From contig NZ_FXYD01000001.1 of NCBI RefSeq assembly GCF_900185015.1, forward strand, positions 372,001 through 436,000: 64,000 nucleotides of DNA, given 5' to 3'. Positions within the stretch are counted from its first letter, which is position 1, and each line of letters starts with the position of its first letter. Below, one piece after another: positions 5,461 to 21,706 of the stretch. The position numbers and the translations under genes are program-made. The notes below the pieces were generated by a model. The model made no database searches and was not told the DNA's origin. It saw nothing but the letters and a program-made list of their open reading frames with translations. The stretch comes from Octadecabacter ascidiaceicola (GTDB taxonomy: Bacteria > Pseudomonadota > Alphaproteobacteria > Rhodobacterales > Rhodobacteraceae).

Positions 5461-5480
5461 GTTGTTCGTTTGCTAGGCAA

Positions 5481-6446: not shown

Positions 6447-6490
6447 TTTCTCTCTCCCTTGGTTATATCCCAAAACTGCCTCCCGCAGAT

Positions 6491-6955: not shown

Positions 6956-8463
6956 GCGCTGGCCTCTTCTTTGGTGGTGTAACGGCGTTGGCGCAATTCC
7001 ATCCAGATGGAGTAGCCAATCGAAGCGACAACGATCAAAATCAGCAACCAGTTCAGCCAGCCCGTAAAGAAATAAGCCATCTTGCCGACGGTGGCATTGG
7101 CGATCATCGCACCTTGCATGAAGTTTGCCTCTGCAATGGGTCCAAGGATCAGACCAAGGACCAGCGGTGCTGCCGAAAAACCGAAGCGTTCAAGGAAATA
7201 CATGGCAAGGCCAAGGGAAGCCATGACGTAGACATCCCCCATAGAGTGACCAACGGAGTAGCTGCCAAACACCGCGAGCCCAAGGACGACAGCGGCCATC
7301 ACCGAACGCGGCACACGGGCTACATTGGCTGCCCAACCCGCGATAAACAGGCCGAACATACACATCAGGATTTGCCCAACCAACATCGAGTTGATGAAAG
7401 GCCAGACCACTTGGGGGTATTGCGTGAACAAACTTGGTCCAGGGAAAATGCCGTGGATGAGCAAACCGCCAAGCAGAACAGCAGCGGTCGGTGATCCCGG
7501 TATCGACAGCGTCAACAATGGGACCAACGACGGGCCAACCATCGCATTGTTTGCACTTTCCGCGGCAATGACACCTTCGGGGTGACCTGTGCCAAATTTC
7601 CCGCTCTCGGGGCTCATCTTTTTGGATTGATCATAGGCGACAAGACCCGCGATCTGCCCGCCGACGCCGGGGATCAAGCCGATGATTGAACCAACGGACG
7701 TGCCAATCGCCAGCGCACGTTTGCGGCTGAATACTTCGCGAAACGCAGCGCCGATGGGATGGCGCTGCACGACGATTATCTCGGCATCCACGTTTGAGCG
7801 CCCCTTCGCGAACATGGCGATCACTTGCGGAATAGCGAACAGGCCAATCAACGCAGGAATTATGTTGATGCCGCCGCTAACAGAAGAATGAAAGATGAAG
7901 CGTTGCGCGCCCATGATGTCGTCAAATCCGATCGTGGCAAGCCACAGGCCGATGCACCCTGACAGCAGGCCTTTGACAACCGAACTGGAATCTAGCGTGC
8001 CGATAACAGTAACGCCTAAAATGGCGAGCCAGAACAGTTCGGACGGACCAAATGCCAGCGCCCAAGTGGCCAGAACCGGTGTCAGGAAAATCAACAAGAA
8101 CACACCAAACAGACCGCCAATCGCCGATGCTATAAACGAAATTTGCAACGCCTTGGCGCCTTCGCCCTTTTGCGCCATCGTGTGACCATCCAGTGTGGTC
8201 GCAATATTGGCAGGTGCCCCCGGAATTTTTAGTAAAATCGCACTGACTGCGCCTCCTGCCACTGTCGATGTATAGGCTGCCCCAAGCAGGATAAGCCCCT
8301 GTTCTGGGGCGAGTTTGAAGGTGAACGGAATCATCAATGCGACCGTCATCGTCGGCGACAAGCCCGGCGTTGCGCCAAGTATCAAGCCGCCGATCGTACC
8401 CAGCAACAACAGCCCGAAGTTGATCGGGGTGAACACGTCGCCCATGTAGTACAGAAAATCCAA
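6952..8463 (-). CDS. tctA: TctA-family large membrane subunit of the tripartite tricarboxylate transporter
   Basis: This is a polytopic protein of about 503 residues with the TctA signatures GATPGLSPTMTVALMIPFTF near the N-terminus and IGLIPGVGGQIAGLVAYDQ in the middle. I place the start at TTG 8461-8463 (protein LDFLYYMGDVFTPINFG). A GGGGAGG Shine-Dalgarno lies 9 nt before it, and the nominal ATG at 8481 would be partly formed by that very site. The alternative ATG start adds only six residues. It is the first gene of the operon and is divergent from the LacI regulator. Confidence 0.88.
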   Translation of the reverse strand: MDFLYYMGDVFTPINFGLLLLGTIGGLILGATPGLSPTMTVALMIPFTFKLAPEQGLILLGAAYTSTVAGGAVSAILLKIPGAPANIATTLDGHTMAQKGEGAKALQISFIASAIGGLFGVFLLIFLTPVLATWALAFGPSELFWLAILGVTVIGTLDSSSVVKGLLSGCIGLWLATIGFDDIMGAQRFIFHSSVSGGINIIPALIGLFAIPQVIAMFAKGRSNVDAEIIVVQRHPIGAAFREVFSRKRALAIGTSVGSIIGLIPGVGGQIAGLVAYDQSKKMSPESGKFGTGHPEGVIAAESANNAMVGPSLVPLLTLSIPGSPTAAVLLGGLLIHGIFPGPSLFTQYPQVVWPFINSMLVGQILMCMFGLFIAGWAANVARVPRSVMAAVVLGLAVFGSYSVGHSMGDVYVMASLGLAMYFLERFGFSAAPLVLGLILGPIAEANFMQGAMIANATVGKMAYFFTGWLNWLLILIVVASIGYSIWMELRQRRYTTKEEASA

Positions 8464-8522
8464 GCGCCGAGGCCTCCCCATCTTTGCAGTTGATCTTTGA
8501 CGCTAAACAATGAAAATAGTTT

Positions 8523-8536
8523 TGCAAATGTTTTCA
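8523..8536. promoter_or_regulatory. Probable LacI-family operator
   Basis: The 14-mer TGCAAATGTTTTCA fits the LacI/GalR/CcpA-type consensus TGNAANNNNTTNCA. It lies in the divergent promoter region between tctA and the LacI-family gene, 59 nt upstream of tctA and 14 nt upstream of the GTG chosen for the regulator. A wider ATGAAAA/TTTTCAT inverted repeat (arms from about 8509 to 8537) surrounds it. The position predicts substrate-inducible repression of both the transporter operon and the regulator. Confidence 0.55.
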
Positions 8537-8550
8537 TAAATGGATGGCAA

Positions 8551-9582
8551 GTGACTGATACAAAAGTAAAACAAGTCGATATTCTATCGGTTGCAAAGGC
8601 TGCTAACGTATCGCCGTCAACGGTGTCGCGCTATTTCAACCATCCCGAACTGGTCAAACTGGTCACGCGGCGCAGAATCGAAACGGCAGTACGCAAACAA
8701 GGCTATATTCGCAATCGCGCCGCCCAAACCATCCACGGCATTCGCAGCGGAACCATCGGCGTGATTGTCCCCACACTAGACCACGCGATCTTTGCCGAGG
8801 TCGTGCAGTCGTTTTCAGATACGGTCGCAGAACAGGGCTTTACGATCCTGTTGGCCTCGCACGGATATGATCAACAGCGCGAATATGCGATCCTGCGCAA
8901 GATGCTAGAGCACCGTGTGGACGGTATCGTTTTGACGGGTCTGGATCACGACGACGCGGTTTTTCGCCTGATCGACAGCCAGACTATTCCGTCGATCCTG
9001 ATGTGGAATTACGCCGAAGACGCACGATATCCAAGCATCGGCTCCGACAACAATTCTGCGGGCGTGATGATTGCTGAACATGTGCTGTCTCAGGGTCACC
9101 GTGACATCGCCTGCATGTTCCCCCCGACCGGCGGAAATGACCGTGCTCAGGAACGCTTACTAGCCGTCATGCAAACACTTACAGACGCGGGGATTTGCGT
9201 GCCGGATCATTGGCAGTTGACGACAGTTTATAGCATCTCGGCCTCAAAACGAGATACCTTGGAGTTGCTGAATCGAACTGATCGACCCACGGCAATCATT
9301 TGCGGCAACGACATTCTCGCGACGGGTGCGCTCTACGGGGCCGCAGCTGCCGGATTGCGCGTGCCGGACGATATTTCCATTACGGGAATTGGGGATTTCA
9401 AAGGATCCGCCGAGATTGAGCCTGCCCTCACGACAGTCCGTATTCCCGCGAAACGCATCGGTCACAAAGCAGGGCTCGCGCTGTCTTCAGCCATCATCAA
9501 CCCCAGCTCAGTGGCCACCGGTGTTCACTGCAAACCGAAGCTCATTATAAGATCATCAAGCAAGCCGCTGAGTGGACAGTAG
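8551..9582 (+). CDS. LacI-family transcriptional regulator
   Basis: The protein opens with a canonical LacI helix-turn-helix (VDILSVAKAANVSPSTVSRYFNHPELV) followed by the hinge and a periplasmic-binding-protein-like sensor domain (IGVIVPTLDHAIFAEVV to the C-terminus). Starting at GTG 8551 gives 343 residues and leaves the operator 8523-8536 outside the gene. An in-frame TTG at 8497 would make 361 residues but places the operator inside the coding region and adds a non-conserved tail. It probably controls the adjacent tct-sau operon. Confidence 0.85.
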   Translation: MTDTKVKQVDILSVAKAANVSPSTVSRYFNHPELVKLVTRRRIETAVRKQGYIRNRAAQTIHGIRSGTIGVIVPTLDHAIFAEVVQSFSDTVAEQGFTILLASHGYDQQREYAILRKMLEHRVDGIVLTGLDHDDAVFRLIDSQTIPSILMWNYAEDARYPSIGSDNNSAGVMIAEHVLSQGHRDIACMFPPTGGNDRAQERLLAVMQTLTDAGICVPDHWQLTTVYSISASKRDTLELLNRTDRPTAIICGNDILATGALYGAAAAGLRVPDDISITGIGDFKGSAEIEPALTTVRIPAKRIGHKAGLALSSAIINPSSVATGVHCKPKLIIRSSSKPLSGQ

Positions 9583-9931
9583 CCAATCCAGCATTCAAGA
9601 GCGACAAAAGTCATCTGCGTCGAAACAGAAATTACTATACGTCGCGAATTGATTTTTGCACGGTCGAAAACCGCAGAAAGCCGACCTTGGAAGAATGTCT
9701 ACTAACGGCAGCTTTGTCCCGCTAAGCGGCCAGTCATAATCCCTACTATGAATGTCAGCTTTGAGCATTGACATGCTACTGGCGTAACGCAGAAATCTGA
9801 CAGAAATAAAACGACTATGCATTGACTCTATTTCGGCCCAATCAACCGTGGGTGGATCGAAATCTGCTAACCGGTTTTACGTTAAGGAACTCGGCGGCCG
9901 CCAAATGCAGCTGCCGGGTGTCATATATGTG
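9583..9931. other. Intergenic stretch without a supported gene
   Basis: No frame here looks coding. The frames present have biased, low-complexity composition and no recognisable domain. A small CCGC/GCGG hairpin with the surroundings CGGCAGCTTTGTCCCGCTAAGCGGCC (about 9706-9731, quoted loosely by position) is reminiscent of intergenic repeat debris. Nothing else is seen. Confidence 0.4.
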
Positions 9932-10279
9932 TTAGTCTGAACTTGTGTCGCTCGAGGGTTTCGACATGTGATCCGCAACAAGCAGCTCGGCAAAATCCTT
10001 GATCTTCTGCTTCTCTTCATCCGTCAGCTTCATTTGCATCTTTGGCGGCTGCGGCGGGCCGATGAACTCTGTTTTATCTTTCATCAGCTCTTCGTACGTC
10101 AGTAGCTTCAGCTCAACGATCACAGGTCGTCGATCTTTTCCGTGTTCATCTAAGTACGGCTCGAAGATCCCGCCTGACAGTTCATCGATCAGCTCTTGCA
10201 AGAGCATCCGCTCGTCGTTGTGCACCATCTTGTAGTTCACGAAACGCCATTGCCGGAGAAGCGCCAGTAGCGAACTCAA
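9932..10279 (-). CDS. Hypothetical protein, charged, about 98-115 residues
   Basis: The product is rich in Glu, Lys and Asp with a coherent hydrophilic pattern (LLQELIDELSGGIFEPYLDE, RRPVIVELKLLTYEEL, KMQMKLTDEEKQKIKDFAELL), unlike the antisense noise nearby. Either TTG 10279 or the internal ATG at 10228 (MVHNDERMLLQEL) could be the start. I favour the latter because the residues before it look non-conserved in style. It has no signal peptide or membrane segment. I do not recognise the family. It stands alone in a gene-poor, IS-scarred gap and could be a recent import or a 5'-damaged gene. Confidence 0.5.
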   Translation of the reverse strand: MSSLLALLRQWRFVNYKMVHNDERMLLQELIDELSGGIFEPYLDEHGKDRRPVIVELKLLTYEELMKDKTEFIGPPQPPKMQMKLTDEEKQKIKDFAELLVADHMSKPSSDTSSD

Positions 10280-10489
10280 TGGAGAGCAGGTCAGAACTTG
10301 GGGCTAGAAGCCCGTTAAGCGGTCAAAGCCGTCCTTAGATAGCTATCGATGACATAAATGACATAAAATGAAGGGACCGACCAAAACACCCCTCCCAATC
10401 GATAACTGCATCGTGCTCAGCACAGATACGGCAGGCACTAACCGGCGCTACAATGGGTATTTGAGCGGTTTTACCGATGACCCGATGAG
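10280..10489. other. Short non-coding stretch
   Basis: It holds a tandem ATGACATAAA-like repeat at about 10349-10368 and a small GGGGCT/AGCCC-type hairpin near 10301-10314. There is no convincing gene. Confidence 0.3.
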
Positions 10490-10717
10490 TTACTCGATCC
10501 CGTATTCTAGGAGTAATGCCTCAAGGTGTTCATCGCTATGGAATACGACGTCAACGTCATCAGTACTGATCAAACGCCCCCAGAAACCTCCTGACGGCGT
10601 TTTTAGCTCCTCGAACATTTCCAACCGCAAAGTTCGTGCGGAGCGGTAGCTTATCCCACAAAATGATACGTGTACTTTACAAAATAGTCGAAATATCAGC
10701 TCGACCGAACCACATGG
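10490..10717 (-). pseudogene. Possible gene remnant, unrecognised
   Basis: A minus-strand frame open from 10717 to a TAA at 10490-10492 encodes a tail that looks protein-like: EMFEELKTPSGGFWGRL, then STDDVDVVFHSDEHLEALL and a final EYGIE. The only ATG is at 10618, which would give about 42 residues. The upstream part (rich in Phe, Cys and Ser) looks less coding. It may be the 3' end of a gene that lost its start. No family assignment is possible. Confidence 0.3.
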
Positions 10718-10997
10718 TCATTCGTCCACAGTCCATCATTTCATCAGCCTGAACGACTGCTTTGCGGACTTTTCTGCCGTTCGGGGTGTTGAATTGTATG
10801 TCCGCTCTTTGACGTACCACATCGGGTCCCCTCTGTTTACTTCGATAGCGATTTCCCCCAATGCTTCCTTTTCGCCAAAAGTGTGCTGCGCCCCAGTAAT
10901 ACTGCGGCGCGGACATTAGGTACGTTGCGCGGTTTCTAAACCAATCACAAAACGGTCTGAGTATTGGTGCCGTTTGGGGTAAAAAGGACCACGTCAA
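10718..10997. other. Intergenic stretch without a supported gene
   Basis: A 106-residue minus-strand frame crosses this segment, but its composition (many Trp, Arg and Cys, no domain) does not look like a real protein. It probably represents degraded DNA between the remnants and the end of the kinase-mutarotase gene. Confidence 0.35.
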
Positions 10998-12239
10998 TTA
11001 AGCCAAATGAAACACTTCTTCCATTTCCGCCCACCATTCGCCATCTGCTCGGGTTTCAAAAGGGTCCTGCATTGGTCCGCAAACCGCCCACCATTCTTGG
11101 GTTATGGGGTCAGCCGCAATGGCTGCATTGTCAGCTTCGAAATCGCTTCCAGTATATTCAAAATACCCAAACATAAGGAACTCGGGTTTTTTGAGATAGA
11201 TAGAATAGTTTGTGAAGTGGGACGCTTTTAAACGACTAAGCACACCGGGCCAAACGTCGGCGTGGAGGCGTTTGTATTCATCTAGGTGCTCTGGCCGTAG
11301 ACGAATGACACTGCCCATACGGTTTGCTTTGGAGGCTGCCACGCGCGGCAAGATAGCGCCTTGATGCGTGACAACACGGGCCGCCAATGCATGGGCTTCG
11401 ACCGCGGCTTCTGCTTGCGTCTTGTCAGCTGCGATTGCCGCAAGGTAGGCACCGTTGAAACTATCACCAGCCCCTGTTGTGTCGACAACTCTGTCGGCTT
11501 TGGCAAAGTTTTCGATGTCGTCGGATAATGGGATAAGCAATGGTCCTGCATCGCCACACTTCAACGCGCCAGATTGCGCACCTGTCGCAACGATACGATT
11601 AACGATACCCGAGGTGGTCTTGTCGCCGAACAAATCCGCTTCGTCTTCGTATGACGGCAAGGCGATGTCAGTGATTTCCCAAAAGCGGGTTATCTCGCGA
11701 CGCGCGGTGGTTGTCGCGTCCCACAGTTTGGGCCGGTAATTGGAATCAAAAGCGACCTTGAGGCCTGACGCGCGGTGCGCGGCTAAGGCATTCCAAAGGC
11801 GGTCGCGTGCATTTGGCGTCAAGATAGCAAGGGTGATGCCCGACAGATAGACCAGATCAGCCATCTCAATCGCTGCCAAATGCGGTGAGGTGTCGGTAGC
11901 AAACATGGCGCGCGCGGCAGAGGCGTCGCGCCAATAATGGAAGCTCCGCTCGCCGTTTTCGTCATTTTGGATGGCGTATATACCGATTTGGCGGTTTGGG
12001 TCGCGGCTGACGTGATCGGTCTGAATACCTTCGCGTGTCATCAATTCCAAAACAGCATCAGACAGAGTATCTTCCCCGATAGCCGTAACATAGTGGACGG
12101 CGATATCGCGGTTTTGGACCGATCGGGCACAATAGATGGCGGTGTTCAGCGTATCGCCACCAAAGGCAACTGCTAGGTCGGATGCACGACGCGAGATTTC
12201 TGCCAAAGGTTCGCCAATGCACAAAATGTTATAGGTCAT
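10998..12239 (-). CDS. 2-keto-3-deoxygluconate kinase fused to an L-rhamnose/L-fucose-type mutarotase
   Basis: The protein has 413 residues. Residues 1 to about 300 are a PfkB-family kinase with strong KdgK character: FGGDTLNTAIYCAR (26-39), FHYWRDASAAR (100-110), YLSGITLAILTP (131-142) and the catalytic DTTGAGDSFNGAY (253-265). Residues 308-413 are a complete RhaM-type mutarotase domain (about 106 residues, with IRLRPEHLDEYKRLHADVWP, YSIYL and the Trp-rich WWAVCGPMQDPF and WWAEMEEVFHL). KdgK phosphorylates KDG to KDPG for Entner-Doudoroff cleavage. The mutarotase interconverts sugar anomers. So the first and last steps of one pathway share a polypeptide. The start overlaps the lactonase stop by 4 nt. 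Confidence 0.88.
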   Translation of the reverse strand: MTYNILCIGEPLAEISRRASDLAVAFGGDTLNTAIYCARSVQNRDIAVHYVTAIGEDTLSDAVLELMTREGIQTDHVSRDPNRQIGIYAIQNDENGERSFHYWRDASAARAMFATDTSPHLAAIEMADLVYLSGITLAILTPNARDRLWNALAAHRASGLKVAFDSNYRPKLWDATTTARREITRFWEITDIALPSYEDEADLFGDKTTSGIVNRIVATGAQSGALKCGDAGPLLIPLSDDIENFAKADRVVDTTGAGDSFNGAYLAAIAADKTQAEAAVEAHALAARVVTHQGAILPRVAASKANRMGSVIRLRPEHLDEYKRLHADVWPGVLSRLKASHFTNYSIYLKKPEFLMFGYFEYTGSDFEADNAAIAADPITQEWWAVCGPMQDPFETRADGEWWAEMEEVFHLA

Positions 12240-13090
12240 GATAATAGCTCCAAGCCATAAAAGCGGGTGGCAGTGCCACCGTAGATGTCTGCTTTGTCCT
12301 GATCATTCAGATCAGCGAAAAGCGTGTCAGACACAGCGCGCCACTGCGCATAGTCCCCTGCAAGGTTTAGGACAGGCCAATCGCTCCCCCACATGGTTCT
12401 GTTGGAACCAAAGTGGTCCACAACATAGGCAACCACATCCAGTAGGGATTGAGCGTTCCAACCTGGACCCGCTTCATTTGCGAGGCCAGAGATTTTACAC
12501 ATTGTATTGGGCAATGCTGCCAAGCGTGCCATGCCATCGCGCCATGTATCACCAGCGTCAGCGCCACCTGCTATGATGGGCTTGGCGCAATGATCTATCA
12601 CGATGGACAACTGCGGCAGGTCCGCCGCGACACCTGCAAGAACGTCCAGATGGCACGGCACGACAAGGGCGTCCAATCGCAGTCCGCGTTCTGCAACGGC
12701 CGCCAAATTGGCCATAACAGTCGGTTTTGAAATCCAGTTGGTGTCTTCGATGTCTTGTAGCATCGGCCGCACGCCCTTGAAGACGGATGATGCCATCAAG
12801 TGATCCAATACGCTTGGGCATACTGGATCTTCCAGATCAACCCAGCCAACCACGCCTTTTATAAAGGGGGTGTCTTTGGCTAAGCGAAGGAGAAATTCTG
12901 TTTCAGCTATCGTTGCGGCCGCTTGGACTACGACAGTTCCTGCAATGTCGTGTTTTGCCAACAGGGGTGACAGGTCAGCCGGCAGGGTGTCGTGGCGGAT
13001 TTCAGCGACGTCGTCAGTCATCCAATCGTAGTCACCGCGTGTAATTTGCCAAAAATGCTGGTGTGCATCGATTTTAGGAGATGTGGACAT
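12236..13090 (-). CDS. cog3618 amidohydrolase-family sugar lactonase (L-galactono/L-fuconolactonase type)
   Basis: The 284-residue TIM-barrel amidohydrolase has the metal-binding start DAHQHFW (His10 and His12), VIDHCAKP with His167, and WGSDWPV with Asp237. This is the pattern of the cog3618 lactonases that open L-fucono- and related lactones. In this operon it would hydrolyse the lactone made by the aldo/keto reductase to the aldonate. It is the first gene of the minus-strand pair and is translationally coupled to the kinase-mutarotase. Its 89-nt upstream gap to the tagaturonate-reductase-like gene carries one copy of the shared 21-bp operator. Confidence 0.85.
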   Translation of the reverse strand: MSTSPKIDAHQHFWQITRGDYDWMTDDVAEIRHDTLPADLSPLLAKHDIAGTVVVQAAATIAETEFLLRLAKDTPFIKGVVGWVDLEDPVCPSVLDHLMASSVFKGVRPMLQDIEDTNWISKPTVMANLAAVAERGLRLDALVVPCHLDVLAGVAADLPQLSIVIDHCAKPIIAGGADAGDTWRDGMARLAALPNTMCKISGLANEAGPGWNAQSLLDVVAYVVDHFGSNRTMWGSDWPVLNLAGDYAQWRAVSDTLFADLNDQDKADIYGGTATRFYGLELLS

Positions 13091-13123
13091 CAGGCTTTCC
13101 TCGAAGACGTGGTTGACTTAAGA

Positions 13124-13144
13124 TGTTTTGTATAATTAAAAACA
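13124..13144. promoter_or_regulatory. Predicted GntR operator, copy 1
   Basis: A 21-bp element with arms TGTTTT and AAAACA separated by 9 nt lies midway between the lactonase and the uxaB-like genes. Its right half (AATTAAAAACA) is identical to that of copy 2 at 16237-16257. A TATAAT lies inside it at 13131-13136, so binding would block transcription in this divergent region. Confidence 0.6.
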
Positions 13145-13194
13145 CCCAAACGTAAAGCGCCGAGTTTCACCTTGCGCCCTTGAGAGGATCGCCT

Positions 13195-14307
13195 TTGCAG
13201 CCCACGCCCATTCTTCAGTTCGGAACGAGCCGCTTTTTGCAGGCGCATGCCGATCTATTTGTCTCGCAAGCGATGCAAAACGGCCAAGAGGTTGGTCCGA
13301 TCACGGTAGTGCAAAGCTCTGGCGATCCAAGCCGTGCTGCGCGTTTGGCCGCACTGGTTGGGTCTTACCCTGTTCGTGTCGAAGGCTTGATCAAAGGTAC
13401 AAGGGTGCAGGAAACGCTGGATGTAACAAGTGTTGCACGGACACTGTCGACATCCACGGACTGGGATGAAGTTGCGCGTATCTTCGTGGAAGAGGCAAGA
13501 ATCGTTTTGTCGAATACTGGTGATACCGGATTTGCGCCCCAAAAATGCGACAGCGATCCATCTTTCGACCAAGCCATGTCATACCCCGCCAAGCTGACCC
13601 ATCTTCTACGGCTTCGGTTTGCAAATAATTCAGCCCCTATTCAGATCATGCCGATGGAATTGATCGTTGATAATGGGACGGTCTTAAAGACCCGTGTCAT
13701 GGCGTTGGCACAGAATGATGGGCCCGAATTTCGGGACTATTTGGAACGTGAGGTGATATGGGTGAACTCGCTGGTGGACCGGATTGTGTCACAACCGCTG
13801 GAACCGGCAGGTGCCGTTGCCGAACCCTACGCGCTTTGGGCGATTGAGGATCAACCCGGTCTTGTCCTGCCGTGTGACCATCCCTCAGTGCAACTCGTGC
13901 CATCGTTATCTGACATTGAGGCGCTCAAGCTCTTTGTCCTGAACCTTGGCCATACGTTTCTGGCGGATCGGTGGCTTCGCAATAAAGGCGCTGATGATGT
14001 GCTTGTGCGTCATATTGTTGACGACGCCGCTGAACTTGCGCAGCTCAAGTTCGTTTTGCAAAATGAGGTCCGCCCGGTGTTCGTCGCAGCGCGCCTTGCG
14101 GATGCGTTCGATGCTTATGTCGTCACCACCATAGAGCGCTTTGCCAACCCATTCCTCGACCACCGGATCGCTGATATTGCACAAAACCATGCCCAAAAAG
14201 TCGGCCGCCGGATTTCGGCGATGCTGGACTGGGCCGTTGCAAAGGGCGATCTCTCAGCAAAGCCGATCCTGTCAGAAATCGCCGCACAACATAAGGAACA
14301 CACCTGA
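13195..14307 (+). CDS. Mannitol-dehydrogenase-family oxidoreductase, probable D-tagaturonate reductase
   Basis: The protein is about 370 residues in the UxaB/fructuronate-reductase branch of the polyol dehydrogenase superfamily. It opens with a nucleotide-binding FGTSRFLQAHADLF segment. It shows the substrate-domain motifs PMELIVDNGTVLK and FVLNLGHTFLADRW (in the place of the family's LNxxHT active-site segment), and YALWAIEDQPG. It would reduce D-tagaturonate to D-altronate with NADH. I choose TTG 13195 because GAGAGGA sits 6 nt before it; TTG 13180 would overlap that site. It is shorter than E. coli UxaB (about 480), with loops missing between the two domains. Stop and next start overlap (TGATG). 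Confidence 0.78.
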   Translation: MQPTPILQFGTSRFLQAHADLFVSQAMQNGQEVGPITVVQSSGDPSRAARLAALVGSYPVRVEGLIKGTRVQETLDVTSVARTLSTSTDWDEVARIFVEEARIVLSNTGDTGFAPQKCDSDPSFDQAMSYPAKLTHLLRLRFANNSAPIQIMPMELIVDNGTVLKTRVMALAQNDGPEFRDYLEREVIWVNSLVDRIVSQPLEPAGAVAEPYALWAIEDQPGLVLPCDHPSVQLVPSLSDIEALKLFVLNLGHTFLADRWLRNKGADDVLVRHIVDDAAELAQLKFVLQNEVRPVFVAARLADAFDAYVVTTIERFANPFLDHRIADIAQNHAQKVGRRISAMLDWAVAKGDLSAKPILSEIAAQHKEHT

Positions 14308-15281
14308 TGAATATCATCACAAAACCGGTCGGCAAGACCAACGTTTCTGTCACGTCCCTGTCCTTTGGCTGTGCCAGCATTGGTAACTTGGGCGGTGTTG
14401 TGCGCGACGCAGACGCCACGGCAGTCATGCAGCGCGCGTGGGAGGCGGGCATTCGCTATTTCGACACGGCCCCACACTACGGGCGCGGGCTGTCCGAGCA
14501 ACGCATCGGTACATTTTTGCAGACTAAGCCGCGTGACGCCTATGTGCTGTCCACCAAAGTTGGCCGCGTTTTGTCTCCCGGTGCTGCGATGGACGAGGCC
14601 GACGGCTTTGCTCAGCCTTTGCCAAACGCCGTCCGCTACGACTATTCCGCCGATGGCATCCGTGACAGCTTTGAAAGCAGTTGCGAGCGGCTTGGCACAA
14701 GTCATATTGAGATCCTCTTTGTCCATGACATTGGCGACTACACACACGGGGTTGCAGGGGCTGCGCATTTGGACGACCTTCTGGGATCAGGGATGGGCGC
14801 GCTGCGCGATCTCAAACAAGCGGGACGCATTGGCGCGATTGGGCTTGGGGTGAACGAAAGTCAGGTCTGCATCGACGTGATGCACCATGAAACATTAGAT
14901 ACAATTCTGCTGGCCGGACGCCTGACCTTGCTTGATCGCGAGGCCGAGGCAGGTTTGCTTGATTTATGTGCATCCCAAGGCACGAGCCTTGTGTTGGGTG
15001 GAATCTTCAATTCTGGTATTTTGGCAACGGGCCCAAAACCCGGTGCTTGGTTCGACTACGCGCCAGCATCACAAGATATCTTAGATCAGGTTACTGCATT
15101 GCAAGCGCGTGCCGAAACCGCTGGCCTGACACTGGCCGAAGCGTCGTTGCAATTTGCATTAAACCATCCGGCGGCGTGTTCGGTGCTACTTGGCACTGGC
15201 AAGGTGAGCTCGCTTGAGCGCAATCTCGCAGCCGCAAACAAAGATCTCTCTGCAGAGGCCCTTGCTTTTGTAACAACTTAA
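14307..15281 (+). CDS. Aldo/keto reductase, probable L-galactose (D-threo-aldose type) 1-dehydrogenase
   Basis: The 324-residue AKR has the catalytic tetrad visible as Asp53 and Tyr58 in FDTAPHYGRGLSE, Lys84 in LSTKVGR, and His140 in ILFVHDI. The start TSLSFGCASIGNLGG and the late LNHPAACSVLLGTG are typical of the D-threo-aldose/L-fucose/L-galactose dehydrogenase group (AKR relatives of plant L-galactose dehydrogenase and pyridoxal 4-dehydrogenase). It would oxidise L-galactose to its lactone. It is coupled to the tagaturonate-reductase-like gene and converges on the GntR gene with a 4-nt overlap of stops. Confidence 0.8.
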   Translation: MNIITKPVGKTNVSVTSLSFGCASIGNLGGVVRDADATAVMQRAWEAGIRYFDTAPHYGRGLSEQRIGTFLQTKPRDAYVLSTKVGRVLSPGAAMDEADGFAQPLPNAVRYDYSADGIRDSFESSCERLGTSHIEILFVHDIGDYTHGVAGAAHLDDLLGSGMGALRDLKQAGRIGAIGLGVNESQVCIDVMHHETLDTILLAGRLTLLDREAEAGLLDLCASQGTSLVLGGIFNSGILATGPKPGAWFDYAPASQDILDQVTALQARAETAGLTLAEASLQFALNHPAACSVLLGTGKVSSLERNLAAANKDLSAEALAFVTT

Positions 15282-16219
15282 GACCCGTGGCTGTTCGCCT
15301 TAAGCGAACTCAACAGGGTTTGTTTTGACGTGGCAAGGTGGCGTTTTGCAGCGGCCTGAGCGCTGTTCAAATCGCGGCTACGTAAGGCATCGATGTAATC
15401 CAAATGTTCCCTGATAGCGTTTTCGTTGCGGACGCGTTCATCCGACTTATTCCACTGAAAGTGATAGTGGAACACGAGTGAGATGACCTTTTGGAACTCC
15501 TTCACGAACCTGTTTGTGACCACGTTATTGATGGCTGTGTGGAAAGTTTCATCCAACTGTGAAAAGTCATGAAAGTCCTGATCAATTCGGTCGAGCAGGT
15601 CGTTGTGATCGTTCTCAAGCTGATCAAGACGCAGCCAAATTTCATGCGAGTCCGGCAGCGTCACAATATGACTGACCGAATTGATTTCGAGCAATGTGCG
15701 GAAGTCTGACAGTTCGAGCGCGTAGTCCCGTGTGAACCCGTGCAGGACCCAGCCCCCCTTTGGACGTCTGACAACAATTCCAAACCGGCTGAGGGATGAA
15801 AAGAATTCTTGGAGTGTGTGCGCCGCGACTGAAAACTCTTTGGACAGTTGTGCGACGTTCAACGTGGTGCCCGGCGGGACGTCCATGCGCAGAACCCAAT
15901 CAAGGAATCGCCCTTCCAATTCGTCAATGTTTAGAAGAACAGGGGGCGCTTCGACACGATCCGTTTTTGTGGATCGCCGTTTTATGACTTTTTCACGGCC
16001 TTGTAGTACAATCATTGCTTGTTCATCTAACCGTGCCAAAACCCTGCGCACCACGGTTCGGCTAACTCCAAGACGCAATGCCAAGGCATTTTCTGACGGC
16101 AACAGGGCGCCAATTTCCATGGCGTCACAGATAGTTAGCATTTCAGTATGTGCTTCGACAAAGCGGGTGTTCGTACGTGCCATTGAGCTTCTTGTTCCTG
16201 ATTGTGACATGACCTTCAT
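15278..16219 (-). CDS. GntR-family (FCD-type) transcriptional regulator with an apparent second winged helix
   Basis: The 313-residue protein has a GntR wHTH near residues 28-68 (LLPSENALALRLGVSRTVVRRVLARL). A second DNA-binding-like segment spans about 98-160 (FLDWVLRMDVPPGTTLNVAQLSKEFSVAAHTLQEFFSSLSRFGIV, then RPKGGWVL). An FCD all-helical effector domain follows (residues 170-305), with His residues in FHTAINN, FHYHFQW and REHLDYI that could bind a metal. It is divergent from the ABC importer operon and sits between the two halves of the sugar regulon, so it probably controls both. Confidence 0.82.
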   Translation of the reverse strand: MKVMSQSGTRSSMARTNTRFVEAHTEMLTICDAMEIGALLPSENALALRLGVSRTVVRRVLARLDEQAMIVLQGREKVIKRRSTKTDRVEAPPVLLNIDELEGRFLDWVLRMDVPPGTTLNVAQLSKEFSVAAHTLQEFFSSLSRFGIVVRRPKGGWVLHGFTRDYALELSDFRTLLEINSVSHIVTLPDSHEIWLRLDQLENDHNDLLDRIDQDFHDFSQLDETFHTAINNVVTNRFVKEFQKVISLVFHYHFQWNKSDERVRNENAIREHLDYIDALRSRDLNSAQAAAKRHLATSKQTLLSSLKANSHGS

Positions 16220-16236
16220 AGCTGTCTTTTACGAAA

Positions 16237-16257
16237 TGTTCAAAAAAATTAAAAACA
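16237..16257. promoter_or_regulatory. Predicted GntR operator, copy 2
   Basis: A 21-bp element with TGTT and AACA ends. Its last 11 bases are identical to copy 1 at 13124-13144. It lies immediately upstream of the TTGACG -35 box of the importer promoter, 17 nt from the GntR start codon. Confidence 0.6.
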
Positions 16258-16258
16258 C

Positions 16259-16287
16259 TTGACGTCGCAATATTGACGCCGTACGGT
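16259..16287 (+). promoter_or_regulatory. Probable promoter of the sugar importer operon
   Basis: TTGACG (16259-16264) and TACGGT (16282-16287) are separated by exactly 17 bp, 62 nt upstream of the permease start codon. It is flanked by operator copies 2 and 3. Confidence 0.5.
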
Positions 16288-16305
16288 TTTTTATTATTAA
16301 AGACA
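16285..16305. promoter_or_regulatory. Predicted GntR operator, copy 3
   Basis: This 21-bp stretch matches copy 1 at 17 of 21 positions by eye (shared GTTTT, TAT, ATTAAA and ACA). It overlaps the -10 box at 16282-16287, a position suited to repression. Confidence 0.5.
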
Positions 16306-16349
16306 TAAAACTCTCAGATGAGTTGGATTGTCGCGGGAGGAAGATCAAC

Positions 16350-17363
16350 ATGGCTGCCAATGACGGCAAATCAAAACTCAGCTTTTTGCCCAGTGGGTCG
16401 ACGCTGCACAAGATCTCAGCATTGCTGACGCTGCTCTTGTTGATTCTGGCATTCTCGTTCACGAGCCCTGCCTTTCTGACAGTGAACAACGGTTTGACTG
16501 TTTTGCTCCAGACTTCGGTCATTGGCTTGTTGGCGATTGGGATGACCATGGTCATCATAACTGGCGGCATCGACCTGAGTGTTGGCTCGGTCTTGGCCTT
16601 GGCCGGGGTGGTCGCCGGACTGGTCATCAAGGCTGGTGTGCCAGTTATCCCTGCCATGGCGCTTGGCATTATGGCGGGCGCGGCATGTGGGTTCGTAAAC
16701 GGTCTTGTCATCACCAAGATGCGGATCACGCCCTTTGTCGCAACGCTCGGTATGATGATGATTGCACGTGGTATTGCGCTGCAATTGACAGGCGCGGCCC
16801 CGATCAGTCGTCTTGGCGAGGCTTTTGGCACGCTTGGCAACGGTACATTCTTCCGCGTGGTTGAGATGCAGGACAACGGTTTTCCAAAGGTTATCTTTGC
16901 AGGTGTTCCTTATCCGGCTGTGCTGTTGATCATTGTCGCGATCATCGGCGCGTTCCTTTTACAAAAGCGTCAGATCGGTCGTCATATCTTTTCCGTAGGT
17001 TCTAACGAAGAGGCGGCACGCCTGTCGGGTGTAAATGTCGACCGTACAAAAATTTGGGCCTACACCGCGTCAGGTGCATTGGCTGGGCTTTCAGGCATGG
17101 TTTTGATGTCTCGCCTTGTCACCGTGCAGCCAAACGAAGGCGTCATGTACGAACTGGATGCCATCGCAGCATCCGTCATCGGCGGAGCGTCCCTGATGGG
17201 CGGCGTCGGCAGCATTTCCGGCAGTATGATCGGATCATTCATCATCGGCGTTCTACGCAATGGCCTGAATATGGCGGGCACCTCTGCCTTCATTCAGCAG
17301 ATCATTATCGGGATCGTGGTGATCGGGGCGGTCTATATCGACCAGTTCCGGAACAAGAAATAA
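16350..17363 (+). CDS. Sugar ABC transporter permease (RbsC family)
   Basis: The 337-residue inner-membrane protein has 8-10 hydrophobic segments and RbsC/AraH hallmarks: IGLLAIGMTMVIITGGIDLSVGS (about residues 54-76), RITPFVATLGMMMIARG, and the EAA-like GSNEEAARLSGVNV followed by DAIAASVIGGASLMGG. ATG 16350 is chosen because GGGAGG precedes it by 9 nt. It is the first gene of the importer operon permease-binding protein-ATPase. With the downstream catabolic genes it implies import of a free hexose or deoxyhexose, L-galactose by inference. Confidence 0.9.
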   Translation: MAANDGKSKLSFLPSGSTLHKISALLTLLLLILAFSFTSPAFLTVNNGLTVLLQTSVIGLLAIGMTMVIITGGIDLSVGSVLALAGVVAGLVIKAGVPVIPAMALGIMAGAACGFVNGLVITKMRITPFVATLGMMMIARGIALQLTGAAPISRLGEAFGTLGNGTFFRVVEMQDNGFPKVIFAGVPYPAVLLIIVAIIGAFLLQKRQIGRHIFSVGSNEEAARLSGVNVDRTKIWAYTASGALAGLSGMVLMSRLVTVQPNEGVMYELDAIAASVIGGASLMGGVGSISGSMIGSFIIGVLRNGLNMAGTSAFIQQIIIGIVVIGAVYIDQFRNKK

Positions 17364-17397
17364 CTAACGACACGAAAGTCTTCAAAGGGAGGAAACC

Positions 17398-18339
17398 ATG
17401 AAGAAATTACTTACAACAGCCCTCGTTACAGGCGTCCTGGCGACAGCAGCATCCGTTGCAGCCGCAGGTGAAATCGCTGTAATCGTCAAGACGACGAACT
17501 CCAGCTTCTGGCAGAACGTCAACAAAGGCGCGTCCGCAGCCATCGAGGGCATCAGCGAACACACGATGACGTTCAACGGCCCAGCCGCTGAATCTGCAAT
17601 AGCTGATCAGGTTGCTTTGGTTGAGAACGCCATCAACCGTGGCGTTGCAGCGATTGTGCTTGCACCATCCGACCCAGAAGCTCTGGCGCCAGTCGTTCGG
17701 CGTGCGTTTGAAGCCGGTATTCCTGTTGCAATCATCGACAGTGGCTTGGCCGAAGGCAGCGAGCAATACTTCCAAGCATTCTTGTCCACAGACAACTGCG
17801 CTGCTGGTCAGCAAGCTGCACAGATGATGATCGACAACGCAGGGTCGACCGGCAAAGTTGCCGTCATGTCATACGTTGCTGGCGTAGGCTCTGAAATCGG
17901 TCGCGTTGGTTGCTTCGTTGACTACATCGGCGAAAACTCTGATATCGAAATCGTTGGTCCACTGTATTCACAGTCCCAAATGGCGACTGCTTTGAACCAG
18001 ACAACCGACCTTCTGGCTGCAAACGACGATTTGATTGGTATCTTCGGTGCCAACGAGCCAACAGCCATCGGCATGGGCCGCGCAATCGAACAGGCTGGCA
18101 AAGCGGGTCAACTGGTCGCGATAGGTTTCGACGGCAACGCTGATCTGCAAGACATGGTCAATAGCGGCACATTGCTGGCAACAGCCGTGCAAGGTTCTTT
18201 CCAAATGGGTGAGCTTGGCGTGAACGCTGTTGCTGACATTCTGGCGGGAACACCTGTCACTGACTTCATCGACACTGGCGTTGTGATGGTCACAAAAGAG
18301 AACATCGACACACCAGTCGCACAGAACGTTCTTTACTAA
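17398..18339 (+). CDS. Periplasmic sugar-binding protein (peripla_BP_4 / RbsB-like)
   Basis: The 313-residue protein has a signal peptide ([24 protein letters not shown]) and the RbsB-like start [21 protein letters not shown], which carries binding-site aromatic and Asn residues. Later motifs are [25 protein letters not shown] and [22 protein letters not shown]. It captures the sugar for the importer. A good GGGAGGA site precedes it by 8 nt. It is followed by an intercistronic hairpin, usual for genes whose product is needed in excess. Confidence 0.9.
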
Positions 18340-18356
18340 TTGCGCTTGTTTTACTC

Positions 18357-18384
18357 GGGTCGACGCGTTTACGCGCGTCGGCCC
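18357..18384 (+). promoter_or_regulatory. Intercistronic hairpin after the sugar-binding protein gene
   Basis: GGGTCGACGCG (18357-18367) pairs with CGCGTCGGCCC (18374-18384) over 11 bp with one G-U wobble and a 6-nt loop, without a T-run. It probably protects the binding-protein message from 3' decay and lowers expression of the ATPase downstream. Confidence 0.6.
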
Positions 18385-18409
18385 AACTTCTTCTCTGATA
18401 GGATTTCAA

Positions 18410-19195
18410 ATGTTGGACACAGCCTCTCAAAATACGCCTCTGATCCAGATGATGGATATCGATAAGCAGTTTGGTGGTGTCCATGCTGTGCAAGGTGTCT
18501 CTGTTGATCTCTATCCAGGTGAAGTCGTTGGTGTTTTAGGTCATAACGGTGCCGGAAAATCCTGCCTGATGCGTATGCTATCGGGCGCCATGACGCTCAG
18601 CGGTGGGCAAATAAATGTCAACGGAACCACTGTTGAATTCAAGTCGCCGCAAGACGCAAAGAAATATGGGATTGAGACGATTTACCAGACTTTGGCATTA
18701 GCCAATCATCTGGATGCAGCCGCTAATCTCTTCCTCGGCCGCGAGCTTAAGACCCGTTTCGGGAACCTTGATGAGGCACGCATGTATGCCGAGACAAAGG
18801 AAGCCTTACGCCAACTCAACCCGAATTTCAAAAATTTGAAAGACCCCGTTTCCAAGCTGTCCGGTGGTCAAAGACAAGTTATCGCAATTGCCCGCGCGAT
18901 CTATTTTCAAGCAAAAGTACTGGTCATGGACGAGCCGACTGCGGCGCTTGGCCCCTCGGAAACCGCAATGGTCGCGGATTTGACAATCCGTCTGAAGAAC
19001 GAAGGCATCGGGATCTTCCTGATCAGCCACGACATGCACGACGTCTTTGATTTGTGCGACCGCGTGATCGTGATGAACAAGGGGCGCAACGTTGGTGCCT
19101 TCGCGATTGGCGACGTGAATAAGGACGACATCCTCAGCCTGATCATTAAAGGCACATTGCCTGATGATTGGACACCACGGGGGCAAGCCGCATGA
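18410..19195 (+). CDS. Sugar ABC transporter ATP-binding protein, single-domain
   Basis: The 261-residue ATPase has Walker A GHNGAGKS (residues 44-51), signature LSGGQRQ (150-156), Walker B VLVMDEP (170-176) and the switch His in LISHDMHDV. It resembles one half of RbsA/XylG-type ATPases, so it must act as a homodimer, as in FrcA-type systems. It overlaps the downstream dehydrogenase by 4 nt (ATGA), which ties the importer to catabolism in one transcript. Confidence 0.9.
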
Positions 19196-20205
19196 GCACT
19201 GATACAATGCGCGCCGGTGTTGTCGTTGAACCTGGCACCTTTGCGGTGCAAGACCGCCCCGTCGTCACCGAAGTTCCTGATGGCTGGGTTCTGATTGATA
19301 TCTGCGCAGTTGGGCTGTGCGGCACAGACTATCATATCTTTGAGGGCAAGCATCCGTTTCTCGCCTACCCCCGCGTCATCGGTCACGAGCTCAGCGGGCG
19401 TGTTCTTGAGGACACAGATAACTGGTCGGCCGGCGATCTTGTTGTGGTAAACCCGTATCTGTCATGCGGCGATTGTCGTGCTTGCCGACGTGGTAAGCCG
19501 AACTGCTGCTCAAAAATCGAAGTGCTTGGTGTTCACCGCGATGGTGGGCTCGTCCCCCAGCTGGCTGTCCCTGCGCAAAATCTTTACGCTGCGGATGGGT
19601 TGACCTCTCTACAAGCCGCAATGGTCGAGTTTTTGGCCATTGGCGCGCATGCTGTGCGGCGATCTGGTGTCACCAACGGTGACACGGTGCTTGTGACAGG
19701 TGTCGGGCCCATTGGGATTGGTGCTGCTCTTTTTGCACGTCTTAAGGGCGCGCATGTCACATTGCTGGATCTCAGTACAGAACGCCTTGCTATGGCGGCT
19801 GACAAATTCGGTTTTGACAGCGGACACACGAGCGTTGAGGCGGCCATCAAAGCCACGGATGAAGGTTATGATGTGCTCTTTGACGCAACCGGACATGGCG
19901 GCGCGATTGAGGCGGGCTTTCCTGCCGTAGCCCATGGCGGATCGTATGTACTGGTGAGCGTTGTCAAAGATGACATCACCTTTAACGACCCTGAATTCCA
20001 CAAACGTGAAATGCGCCTTATTGGTAGCCGCAACGCGCTCAAGGTAGATTTCGATTGGGTCATGTCAGCCTTCCGCGACAATTTGATTGATGCCGATGCG
20101 CTTAGCTCTAACGTCATTTCCCTAGATGACTTGACGATTGCATTCGGTGAATTGGCGGCAGATCGTGCAGGCCTGATTAAGGCGATTGTGCAATTAAATG
20201 AGTGA
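19192..20205 (+). CDS. Zn-dependent alcohol dehydrogenase, probable L-galactonate 5-dehydrogenase
   Basis: The 337-residue medium-chain dehydrogenase has catalytic zinc ligands Cys43 ([10 protein letters not shown]) and His65-Glu66 (VIGHELSG). Structural zinc Cys residues are at 92, 95, 98 and 106. The Rossmann segment [28 protein letters not shown] follows. It resembles the LgoD/RspB-type polyol dehydrogenases. In context it would oxidise C5 of L-galactonate to give D-tagaturonate. The start ATG 19192 overlaps the ATPase stop. Family is certain, substrate inferred. Confidence 0.8.
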
Positions 20206-20212
20206 GGACGCG

Positions 20213-21706
20213 ATGGCCAAAACGCTGCGCCTGAACGAGATTGATAATGTTGCCATCGCGCTATCCGCGCTGGAAGCAGGTGAGGATATCGCAACAACCG
20301 CGATCCCGCGCTCACATAAAGTGGCGATCGTTGACATTGCGGCGGGTGCCCATGTGCTACGCTACGGCCAAATCATCGGCAGAGCAGAGCGTTTCATTCC
20401 CGCCGGCACGCACGTGCATGTCCACAACATAAGCATGAGCGGGCATTCCAGCGAACATGCCTTTTCCTCGTCTGTTAAGCATCTCATGGCACCTGAATTT
20501 GCCCGTACATTCGAAGGCTATCACCGAGAAGATGGTAGTGTTGGTACCCGCAATTATATCGGCGTGCTCACGTCGGTAAATTGCTCGGGCTCGGTTGCGC
20601 GTTTCATCACTGAGACGGTGGAAAAGTCTGGCATATTGGGTGATTATCCCAATGTCGACGGTATTGTGCCAATCGTACACGGCAGTGGATGTGGCATGGC
20701 CAATCGCGGCGACGGCTACGATATCTTGCTACGCACATTGTCAGGCTATGCGCGCAATCCAAATTTCGGCGCGATCCTATTGGTTGGGCTTGGCTGTGAA
20801 GTGCTGCAACTCGCTGAACTGGTGGGCGACCGTAAGATCACCAAAGACGGTGCGTTACGCTACATGACGATCCAGCAGATGGGCGGTACACGCCGTACCA
20901 TTGAAGCCGGGCTTGCGCATGTTGCGTCACTTGCGGAACTAGCGAACCAAGCAAGCCGCGCGCCCGCGCCAGTATCTACGCTGACTTTGGGCATGCAATG
21001 TGGTGGATCGGATGGATACTCCGGCTTTACCGCTAATCCGGCTTTGGGCATCGCATCCGATCTATTGGTGCAACATGGCGGTACATCGATCCTTTCGGAA
21101 ACATCCGAAATTTACGGAGCAGAACATCTTTTGACTTGCAGGGCTGTGTCGACGGATGTCGGACAGTTGCTTTTGGATAAGATTACGTGGTGGGAAAACT
21201 ACTGCGCGGCTCACGGCGCAAAAATGGACAACAACCCCAGTCCCGGCAACAAGCGCGGCGGTCTGACAACAATCCTAGAAAAATCGTTGGGAGCTGTCGC
21301 CAAGGGTGGTCAGGCCCCGTTGTCGGGCGTTTTTGATTATGGCGCAACTCTCACAACTAAGGGCTTCGTCTTTATGGACAGCCCAGGCTACGATCCATGC
21401 TCTGTCACAGGGCAGGTTGCGTCAGGTGCAAACCTTATTGCGTTTACGACCGGCCGTGGGTCTGTTTCAGGTTATAAGCCTGCACCTTGCATCAAGCTGT
21501 CATCAAACTCCGATCTATTTGCGCGCATGGGCGAAGACATCGACATCAATTGCGGCGACATCGTGGAAGGCGTTTCACTTGCTGCGAAGGGCGCAGAAAT
21601 CTTTGAAAAGCTTATTGATGTTGCTAGTGGCCAAGAGACGAAAAGTGAGGGCTTTGGTTTTGGAGGTGTTGAGTTCGTACCCTGGCAGATGGGCGCTGTG
21701 CTATAA
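20213..21706 (+). CDS. uxaA: Altronate dehydratase family protein (UxaA)
   Basis: The 497-residue protein has an N-terminal SAF domain (to about residue 80, with ALEAGEDIATTAIPRSHKVAIVDI and VHVHNISM). The UxaA/GarD catalytic region follows (FEGYHREDGSVGTRNYIGVLTSVNCSGSV, HGSGCGM, LGMQCGGSDGYSGFTANPALG, FMDSPGYDP, FTTGRGS). It dehydrates D-altronate to 2-keto-3-deoxygluconate with Fe2+. ATG 20213 is preferred over 20198 because GAGGA lies 7 nt before it and the gene then does not overlap the dehydrogenase. It is the last gene of the importer operon. Confidence 0.88.
   Translation: MAKTLRLNEIDNVAIALSALEAGEDIATTAIPRSHKVAIVDIAAGAHVLRYGQIIGRAERFIPAGTHVHVHNISMSGHSSEHAFSSSVKHLMAPEFARTFEGYHREDGSVGTRNYIGVLTSVNCSGSVARFITETVEKSGILGDYPNVDGIVPIVHGSGCGMANRGDGYDILLRTLSGYARNPNFGAILLVGLGCEVLQLAELVGDRKITKDGALRYMTIQQMGGTRRTIEAGLAHVASLAELANQASRAPAPVSTLTLGMQCGGSDGYSGFTANPALGIASDLLVQHGGTSILSETSEIYGAEHLLTCRAVSTDVGQLLLDKITWWENYCAAHGAKMDNNPSPGNKRGGLTTILEKSLGAVAKGGQAPLSGVFDYGATLTTKGFVFMDSPGYDPCSVTGQVASGANLIAFTTGRGSVSGYKPAPCIKLSSNSDLFARMGEDIDINCGDIVEGVSLAAKGAEIFEKLIDVASGQETKSEGFGFGGVEFVPWQMGAVL

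Follow-up and report, generated by a model that had tools for sequence, protein, structure and literature searches.

A probable regulon for import and oxidation of L-galactose in Octadecabacter ascidiaceicola

Which sugar do the ten genes at 10998-21706 serve, and do they make up one self-contained route? A preliminary description of the window (the whole 64-kb stretch analysed here) had proposed a single regulon, leading from imported L-galactose to KDPG. All ten genes are open reading frames in the order described, with exactly matching outer coordinates, and profile searches and layout confirmed the families and the two divergent pairs. The genes for a kinase-mutarotase fusion and a lactonase diverge from those for a UxaB-like reductase and an aldo-keto reductase (AKR) across a gap of 89 bp; the gene for a GntR regulator diverges, across 103 bp, from a unit encoding an ABC permease, binding protein and ATPase, a Zn alcohol dehydrogenase (ZnDH) and a UxaA/GarD-family dehydratase. 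Neighbours within a unit either overlap or are separated by no more than 70 bp. The core proposal, to which we assign a probability of roughly 0.7 on sequence grounds, is supported by homology, an operator-like palindrome shared by the two promoters, a separate L-fucose operon and the lack of UxaC in the genome. Gene content, order, homology, shared palindrome and genome context are the observations on which it rests.

The most likely route, as predicted from the families, runs through L-galactonate, D-tagaturonate, D-altronate and KDG to KDPG, every substrate and reaction direction being predicted in the same way. The ABC importer would take up L-galactose, the mutarotase domain would speed anomer exchange, and the AKR and the lactonase would produce L-galactonolactone and L-galactonate in turn. 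The ZnDH would oxidise L-galactonate at C5 to D-tagaturonate, which the short UxaB-like reductase would reduce from the opposite face to D-altronate, so that C5 would be epimerised. Dehydration of D-altronate to KDG by the UxaA/GarD enzyme, phosphorylation to KDPG by the kinase half of the fusion and cleavage by an aldolase encoded outside the set would complete the pathway.

The palindrome, identified by motif and genome pattern search, lies at 13124..13144 in the lactonase-reductase gap and at 16285..16305 in the GntR-permease gap (both unstranded). Within three mismatches the 3.23-Mb genome contains no further copy; at the level of the palindrome this is what a single GntR regulon requires, the same operator in both promoters and nowhere else. 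Since the genome pattern was written from these two sites, both match exactly by construction and only the absence of further matches counts as evidence; a reversed-pattern control matched once. Training of the motif drew on 42 relatives, with the window and locus L084 excluded and L085 lacking such a region; its starting seed was an earlier consensus that had included the window, the shuffles were single-base and the relatives are not independent. A third, weaker copy at 16237..16257 (unstranded, motif score 14.2) was missed by the genome pattern at three mismatches. We infer that the GntR/FCD regulator (profile family; 15278..16219, minus strand, likely start near 16183) controls both divergent promoters via the palindrome; its binding there and its inducer are likewise putative.

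The importer consists of a ribose-type permease (16323..17363), a periplasmic ribose-type sugar-binding protein (17398..18339) and an ATPase with a single nucleotide-binding domain (18410..19195), all on the plus strand and assigned by profile families. The binding protein matches PDB 4wut (6.8e-127), the ligand of which we take to be D-fucose; this would not point to L-galactose. In the gap between the binding protein and ATPase genes a hairpin scan found a 12-pair hairpin (18357..18384, plus strand) that possibly sets transcript level; such sites number 13 in the region against 13.5 in shuffles, which is no excess.

The AKR (14307..15281, plus strand), a proposed L-galactose 1-dehydrogenase on the basis of PDB matches and a tree, supplies at family level the L-galactose dehydrogenase that the pathway requires: of its six PDB matches at E up to 1e-15, five are L-galactose dehydrogenases. 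For the Arabidopsis L-galactose dehydrogenase, an excerpt of PMC11066809 gives L-galactose at 0.1-0.4 mM versus L-fucose at 56 mM. The Amidohydro_2 lactonase (12236..13090, minus strand), a proposed L-galactono-1,5-lactonase, matches the L-fucono-1,5-lactonase model NF052480 (212.9 bits, below the cut-off of 400) and PDB 4dlf (1.3e-35). Profile families and PDB matches identify the fusion protein (10998..12239, minus strand) as a KDG-kinase-like PfkB kinase (residues ~4-300) joined to a RhaM/L-fucose-type mutarotase (~305-412), which is nearest the L-fucose mutarotase PDB 7byu (8.4e-43). The fusion occurs in 9 of 88 scanned loci, all nine among the best 80 of at least 548 confirmed relatives; the 88 are these 80 plus eight more, which include at least one duplicate. 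Within the open-licence literature, no publication on a mutarotase-KDG kinase fusion was found.

The ZnDH (19168..20205, plus strand, likely start near 19192) shares 37% identity with E. coli LgoD across 340 residues and matches PDB RspB 4ilk (2e-36), in line with the L-galactonate 5-dehydrogenase of the Zn MDR family that the pathway requires. The reductase (13180..14307, plus strand), a proposed D-tagaturonate reductase, belongs by profile to the mannitol-dehydrogenase family; the top-scoring model is tagaturonate reductase (169.8 bits, below the cut-off of 359), and it shares 29% identity with E. coli UxaB while having ~100 C-terminal residues fewer. Its more likely start is the TTG at 13195, preceded by GAGAGG; this correction and those for GntR and ZnDH are based on the sequence and on relatives. 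The kinase half matches PDB 3lhx ketodeoxygluconokinase (1.6e-60) and, best among NCBIfam models, KdgK (300 bits, below the cut-off of 400). The dehydratase (20198..21706, plus strand), a proposed D-altronate dehydratase, is of the right superfamily by profile and slightly nearer GarD (37% identity) than E. coli UxaA (34%); its best NCBIfam model is galactarate dehydratase (389 bits, below the cut-off of 730.85). None of the lactonase, reductase, dehydratase and kinase reaches its curated NCBIfam cut-off. A 2019 study by Watanabe in Mol Microbiol is said to treat the altronate dehydratase family and may already cover part of our reading of the dehydratase.

The set lacks a KDPG aldolase; two PF01081 genes above cut-off lie elsewhere in the genome, which provides the required enzyme. 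Uronate isomerase UxaC had no matches in this genome, the control being positive in 7 of 14 genomes, and we therefore rejected a feed from galacturonate by the hexuronate pathway. That the substrate is L-glucose or another rare L-aldose, C5-epimerised as in Paracoccus 43P (L-gluconate to D-idonate to KDGal), seems highly improbable. Strain 43P does combine C5 epimerisation with dehydration, a kinase and an aldolase in the same way (PMC12632266), and D-idonate dehydratase belongs to the UxaA/GarD family according to an excerpt of PMC6336799, but the AKR is nearest L-galactose dehydrogenases whereas 43P, compared by description, begins with an inositol dehydrogenase (PMC12632266). Moreover, LguA of Luteolibacter favours L-galactose 40-fold by efficiency (PMC12632266), and the kinase is nearest KDG kinase.

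L-fucose had been considered less likely in the preliminary description, as the set contains no fuconate dehydratase or KDF-type dehydrogenase. No ortholog of the KDF 4-dehydrogenase or the diketo-acid hydrolase that L-fucose route 3 requires was found in the 64-kb window (the best match is a 26% SDR match at 29495-29947), and no enzyme of the enolase type is encoded among the ten genes. By itself, this argument is insufficient, since 21 of 80 relatives (the best 80 of at least 548) carry KDF-dehydrogenase-like and hydrolase genes nearby, and a UxaA/GarD enzyme can act on L-fuconate (excerpt of PMC6336799); the one in the set could fill the role of L-fuconate dehydratase. What makes L-fucose unlikely for this strain is mainly that its L-fucose genes are found on contig C3. 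There, a separate and, by homology, apparently complete oxidative L-fucose operon contains relatives of the enolase-type L-fuconate dehydratase, the L-KDF dehydrogenase and the diketo-acid hydrolase, together with its own AKR, lactonase, mutarotase, regulator and importer; its homologies suggest that it serves L-fucose. Long branches in the AKR tree make the exact place of the C3 AKR uncertain. The C6 kinase of the window set also speaks against L-fucose, as it needs the C6 hydroxyl that L-fucose lacks; on these two grounds L-fucose as sole substrate was rejected for the strain.

The set might still serve both sugars, with a broad AKR, lactonase and mutarotase that would be shared with the finishing enzymes on C3. 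The mutarotase and lactonase are nearest L-fucose enzymes, and an SDR of the L-fucose-dehydrogenase family occurs in four relatives (one was scanned and scored above the model cut-off), as do finishing genes near the set in the 21 of the best 80 relatives mentioned above. We consider such sharing quite unlikely in this strain, because the C3 operon has its own version of each shared component and the palindrome was not found there with the genome pattern at three mismatches.

In the relatives, gene presence was judged in the fetched flanks of the UxaB anchor, with thresholds of our own choice; several contigs are cut (e.g. L084, L085, L091, L097), and the 80 loci are throughout the best 80 of at least 548. 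Of 394 genomes sampled from the family, 31 carry the reductase, the present one included. The catabolic families co-occur more than by chance: AKR, lactonase, GntR, the three ABC genes, ZnDH and UxaA are all present in 18 of the 80 loci. The complete set is also present, for example, in the culturable Zongyanglinia (L089 or L093). Six of the 80 combine a TRAP importer with ZnDH, UxaB and UxaA and have neither AKR nor lactonase, so that the set divides at the aldonate; this, and the dehydratase being the sole PF04295 (UxaA/GarD-family) gene of the genome, further supports L-galactose. Of the L-fucose finishing genes, the hydrolase was found in 23 and the SDR in 22 of these 80 flanks, and both in 21, sometimes directly behind UxaA; an example of the order UxaA-SDR-FAH is seen in L118 and L120. 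Accordingly, relatives may use either sugar, and L-aldonates may be direct substrates of UxaA.

Direct action could also be envisaged for the strain itself, with UxaA dehydrating L-galactonate to 2-keto-3-deoxy-L-galactonate, the C3 dehydrogenase and hydrolase finishing to pyruvate and L-glycerate, and C5 epimerisation as a side branch. According to excerpts of PMC6336799, D-altronate, L-galactonate, L-fuconate and D-arabinonate have a common C2-C4 configuration, the first three of these are weak substrates of a UxaA/GarD enzyme, and a member from Acidovorax is termed L-galactonate dehydratase from unpublished data. The L-KDF dehydrogenase uses L-KDGal with about one fifth of its efficiency on L-KDF (excerpt of PMC11199699), and UxaA and the SDR gene are only 0-28 bp apart in eight loci. 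However, ZnDH, the UxaB-like reductase and the KDG-type kinase would all be needless, yet they are kept in the set, and the missing palindrome at C3 argues against this scheme too, which we regard as unlikely.

Tentatively, and with less than an even chance of holding as a whole, L-fucose and L-galactose catabolism in these alphaproteobacteria may be one modular system. Mutarotase, aldose dehydrogenase and lactonase would form a shared front, and in relatives one UxaA-type dehydratase would handle two substrates differing only at C5 and C6. C5 epimerisation would act as the switch, directing the 6-hydroxy sugar to phosphorylated KDPG, while the 6-deoxy sugar proceeds to pyruvate and lactate. 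In the window strain, the branches would by now be two separate regulons whose fronts are paralogous, with a single protein joining the first dedicated function to the last.

The link to red-algal galactans made in the preliminary description remains unproven, as GH16 and GH29 were not found in the genome. Within a search of these two families, local breakdown of agar or fucan was rejected as well. A sulfatase adjoins a diverged version of the set in 4 of 88 loci (three genomes, L053 and L114 being one), and a GHL6/GH42M-like protein, scanned in L053, neighbours the diverged set. The L-galactose reading gives testable roles to loosely named families in marine alphaproteobacteria: the short UxaB-like reductase, the GarD-like dehydratase, the unnamed AKR and the kinase-mutarotase fusion. 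With an L-fucose operon as its counterpart in this genome, the set offers a clean test of how enzymes discriminate CH3 from CH2OH at C6; Arg60 of the AKR, which is Phe in the C3 paralogue, is a candidate contact for the C6 hydroxyl.

Among known systems, E. coli LgoD, UxaB and UxaA (37%, 29% and 34% identity) perform the same aldonate reactions, but entry is at L-galactonate, and lgo, uxaB and uxaCA are dispersed over separate loci. The Phocaeicola (Bacteroides) vulgatus pathway attributed to Hobbs 2014 reportedly includes a lactonase, Bvu0220. The dehydrogenases of that species, BVU_0219/0222, take L-galactose to D-tagaturonate, as cited in PMC12632266. With L-fucose route 3 (FucM, FucA, FucB, FucC, FucF, FucG; excerpt of PMC11199699) the set shares a front of mutarotase, sugar dehydrogenase and lactonase; that route ends in pyruvate and L-lactate, whereas the set has C5 epimerisation and a kinase instead of a KDF-type dehydrogenase or hydrolase. 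The closest functional parallel is the L-galactose route of Luteolibacter sp. LG18, proven by enzymology and gene disruption (PMC12632266, J Bacteriol 2025). Likened by function, its lgu genes (LguA-H) provide an AKR-type L-galactose dehydrogenase, L-galactonate 5-dehydrogenase, D-tagaturonate reductase, D-altronate dehydratase, KDG kinase and KDPG aldolase. LG18 alone has a different activator type (LguR), a PPi-using kinase (LguH) outside the cluster, the aldolase inside it and a C4 epimerase for L-glucose, and no lactonase, mutarotase or importer is named for its cluster (PMC12632266); the window set, unlike LG18, has GntR, a lactonase, the kinase-mutarotase fusion and an ABC importer. The LG18 authors found no organism with the six orthologs but without lguG, i.e. 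specific to L-galactose (PMC12632266); the present strain is a candidate for such an L-galactose-only specialist, by function rather than by shown orthology. Titles and abstract beginnings in the open-licence literature gave no report of an L-galactose pathway in Rhodobacteraceae, Roseobacter or, with porphyran, Alphaproteobacteria. As the chemistry has already been published for LG18 and, as cited there, for P. vulgatus (PMC12632266), the set is best seen as a variant of a known pathway.

All ten genes of the set (10998-21706) are present as the preliminary description had them, and family scans assign them to a PfkB kinase fused to a RhaM mutarotase, an Amidohydro_2 lactonase, a mannitol-dehydrogenase-family reductase, an aldo-keto reductase (AKR), a GntR/FCD regulator, a ribose-type ABC importer whose ATPase has a single domain, a Zn alcohol dehydrogenase (ZnDH) and a UxaA/GarD dehydratase. 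Neighbouring genes of a unit either overlap or are separated by no more than 70 bp, and the divergent intergenic gaps measure 89 and 103 bp. The 1.4 kb that separate a LacI regulator from the set (9583-10997) contain no frame longer than 115 residues, and their final 240 bp alone are common to the nearest relatives.

L-galactose dehydrogenases make up five of the six PDB matches of the AKR at E up to 1e-15 (best 8scc, 1.1e-28). The fusion protein matches L-fucose mutarotase (7byu, 8.4e-43) in one half and ketodeoxygluconokinase (3lhx, 1.6e-60) in the other; the lactonase matches 4dlf, and an L-fucono-1,5-lactonase model below its cut-off. Identities are 37% between ZnDH and LgoD, 29% between the reductase and UxaB, and 37% and 34% between the dehydratase and GarD and UxaA, respectively. 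K250, N255 and H258 are invariant across 20 aligned reductases and correspond to the residues responsible for catalysis in the mannitol dehydrogenase family. The binding protein matches 4wut (6.8e-127), the ligand of which is presumably D-fucose.

The proposal that the set forms one regulon is supported by a palindrome shared by its two divergent promoters. The GntR-permease gaps of 42 relatives, without the window, served to train a motif whose starting seed had included it. The motif's top seven positions in the 64-kb window (scores 10.8 to 21.0) are overlapping registers of three elements, all inside the two promoters; the next-best position, 55249, scores 9.0. In the lactonase-UxaB gap, which was left out of the training, no more than one of 50 single-base shuffles equalled the best site in each of 29 loci, the window included. 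With up to three mismatches allowed, a 21-base pattern derived from both window sites themselves matched only those two sites in the whole 3.23-Mb genome (reversed control: one match). The palindrome is a candidate operator, to which GntR would bind.

A search of the genome with the hydrolase and short-chain dehydrogenase (SDR) of a relative yielded close copies (80% and 75%) on another contig, C3, adjoining a second mutarotase (55%). By homology, this 20-kb stretch (L175) appears to hold a complete oxidative L-fucose operon at 3376-14780, with a second lactonase and a second AKR (45% and 43% to those of the window), an IclR-type regulator, its own ABC importer and two enolase-superfamily genes. 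The best PDB matches of its SDR are 8y11 and 8y46 (7.5e-95), L-KDF dehydrogenase entries according to PMC11199699. The hydrolase matches L-2,4-diketo-3-deoxyrhamnonate hydrolase (8gsr, 1.1e-97), with 425 bits in the NCBIfam model, below the cut-off of 500. One enolase matches L-fuconate dehydratase (2hne, 5.3e-166), its top match 4ip4 being named by family only; the best model of the extra one (L175:10431-11543) is L-talarate/galactarate dehydratase, below cut-off. A third RhaM-like stretch (C3:18330-18614; 36% to the window mutarotase domain) lies within a 256-residue open frame.

With C5 epimerisation and a kinase dependent on a C6 hydroxyl in addition, the window set forms the 6-hydroxy counterpart of the C3 operon. 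The genome contains one UxaA/GarD-family gene and no UxaC, and the window kinase finds only itself as a strong match there; across the kinase part no other match exceeds 26%. A quick tree of 59 AKRs, for which the program warns of long branches, places the window AKR within a group of 50 reductase-linked AKRs (SH-aLRT 99) and the C3 AKR outside it. Arg60, in a YGRG motif, is found in 14 of 19 aligned AKRs, including that of the window, and is a candidate C6 contact; the other five, including the C3 AKR, have Phe, Tyr or Leu.

Against a purely L-galactose reading stand the neighbours of the reductase in related loci. Among the best 80 of at least 548 loci, the fetched flanks hold the hydrolase in 23, the SDR in 22 and both in 21. 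In eight loci (L096, L111, L117-L121 and L126) a distance of 0-28 bp separates the SDR from UxaA. L122, L133, L136 and L139 each carry an SDR from a single cluster, whose scanned member, that of L136, scores above the L-fucose dehydrogenase model cut-off. PMC6336799 describes a UxaA/GarD enzyme with weak activity on three substrates of the same C2-C4 configuration, D-altronate, L-fuconate and L-galactonate, and PMC11199699 gives L-KDGal as a further substrate of L-KDF dehydrogenase. Relatives may therefore run a dual L-galactose/L-fucose system. Direct dehydration of L-galactonate is a live rival to the route through the reductase.

Sampling found the reductase in 31 of 394 genomes at the family level and in 5 of 385 at the class level, both counts including the strain's own. 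None of the 18 other genomes of the genus, several of them incomplete, gave an ortholog-strength match; matches were weak in 11 (the best 5.4e-14, spanning 205 residues) and absent from seven. The nearest relative among the matches listed is a Loktanella MAG (96% in the reductase), whose common sequence with the left flank ends about 240 bp past the kinase. The right flank has no match in the related loci L084-L087, the contigs of L084 and L085 ending within the set. This fits a moving cassette, with gene loss as the alternative.

By our own thresholds and within the fetched flanks, the best 80 of at least 548 relatives contain ZnDH in 62, GntR in 52, AKR in 51, permease, binding protein and ATPase in 45 each, UxaA in 39, lactonase in 34, mutarotase in 26 and kinase in 21, with nine kinase-mutarotase fusions. 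AKR, lactonase, GntR, importer, ZnDH and UxaA are joint in 18 of these 80; UxaA was not seen in 41 and AKR in 29, in part because contigs are cut. Six of the 80 have ZnDH, UxaB and UxaA together with a TRAP importer (and four of these six the kinase) and lack AKR, lactonase and mutarotase, so that the set divides at the aldonate, which is what the pathway predicts. In L102, L106 and L108 (two Jannaschia, one Oceaniglobus) the flanks fetched around the reductase hold neither ZnDH, AKR nor UxaA, which would suit a pathway that is scattered or decaying.

L-galactose occurs in red algal galactans and ascidian tunics. The suggested red-algal galactan source is possible but unproven, with neither GH16 nor GH29 found in the genome, and our guess is that the strain takes up free sugar that others release. 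In L053, L056, L114 and L129 (L053 and L114 from one genome) a diverged set lies beside a sulfatase, a GHL6/GH42M-like protein and a second ABC importer, hinting that these strains feed on a sulfated polysaccharide or oligosaccharide. Beside the reductase of L056 a UxaA-like dehydratase is encoded by two neighbouring genes (L056:10552-12074), resembling the two-part L-fuconate dehydratase mentioned in PMC6336799.

The chemistry of the proposed route is already known: the same order of L-galactose reactions has been proven in Luteolibacter (PMC12632266), and that paper also cites a P. vulgatus L-galactose pathway (Hobbs 2014). In the open-licence literature searched we found no report of the pathway for Rhodobacteraceae or Roseobacter, nor of a KDG-kinase-mutarotase fusion. 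What distinguishes this case is the gathering of importer, lactonase, mutarotase, kinase and regulator into a single two-promoter regulon, and the joining of the first and last dedicated functions in one fusion protein.
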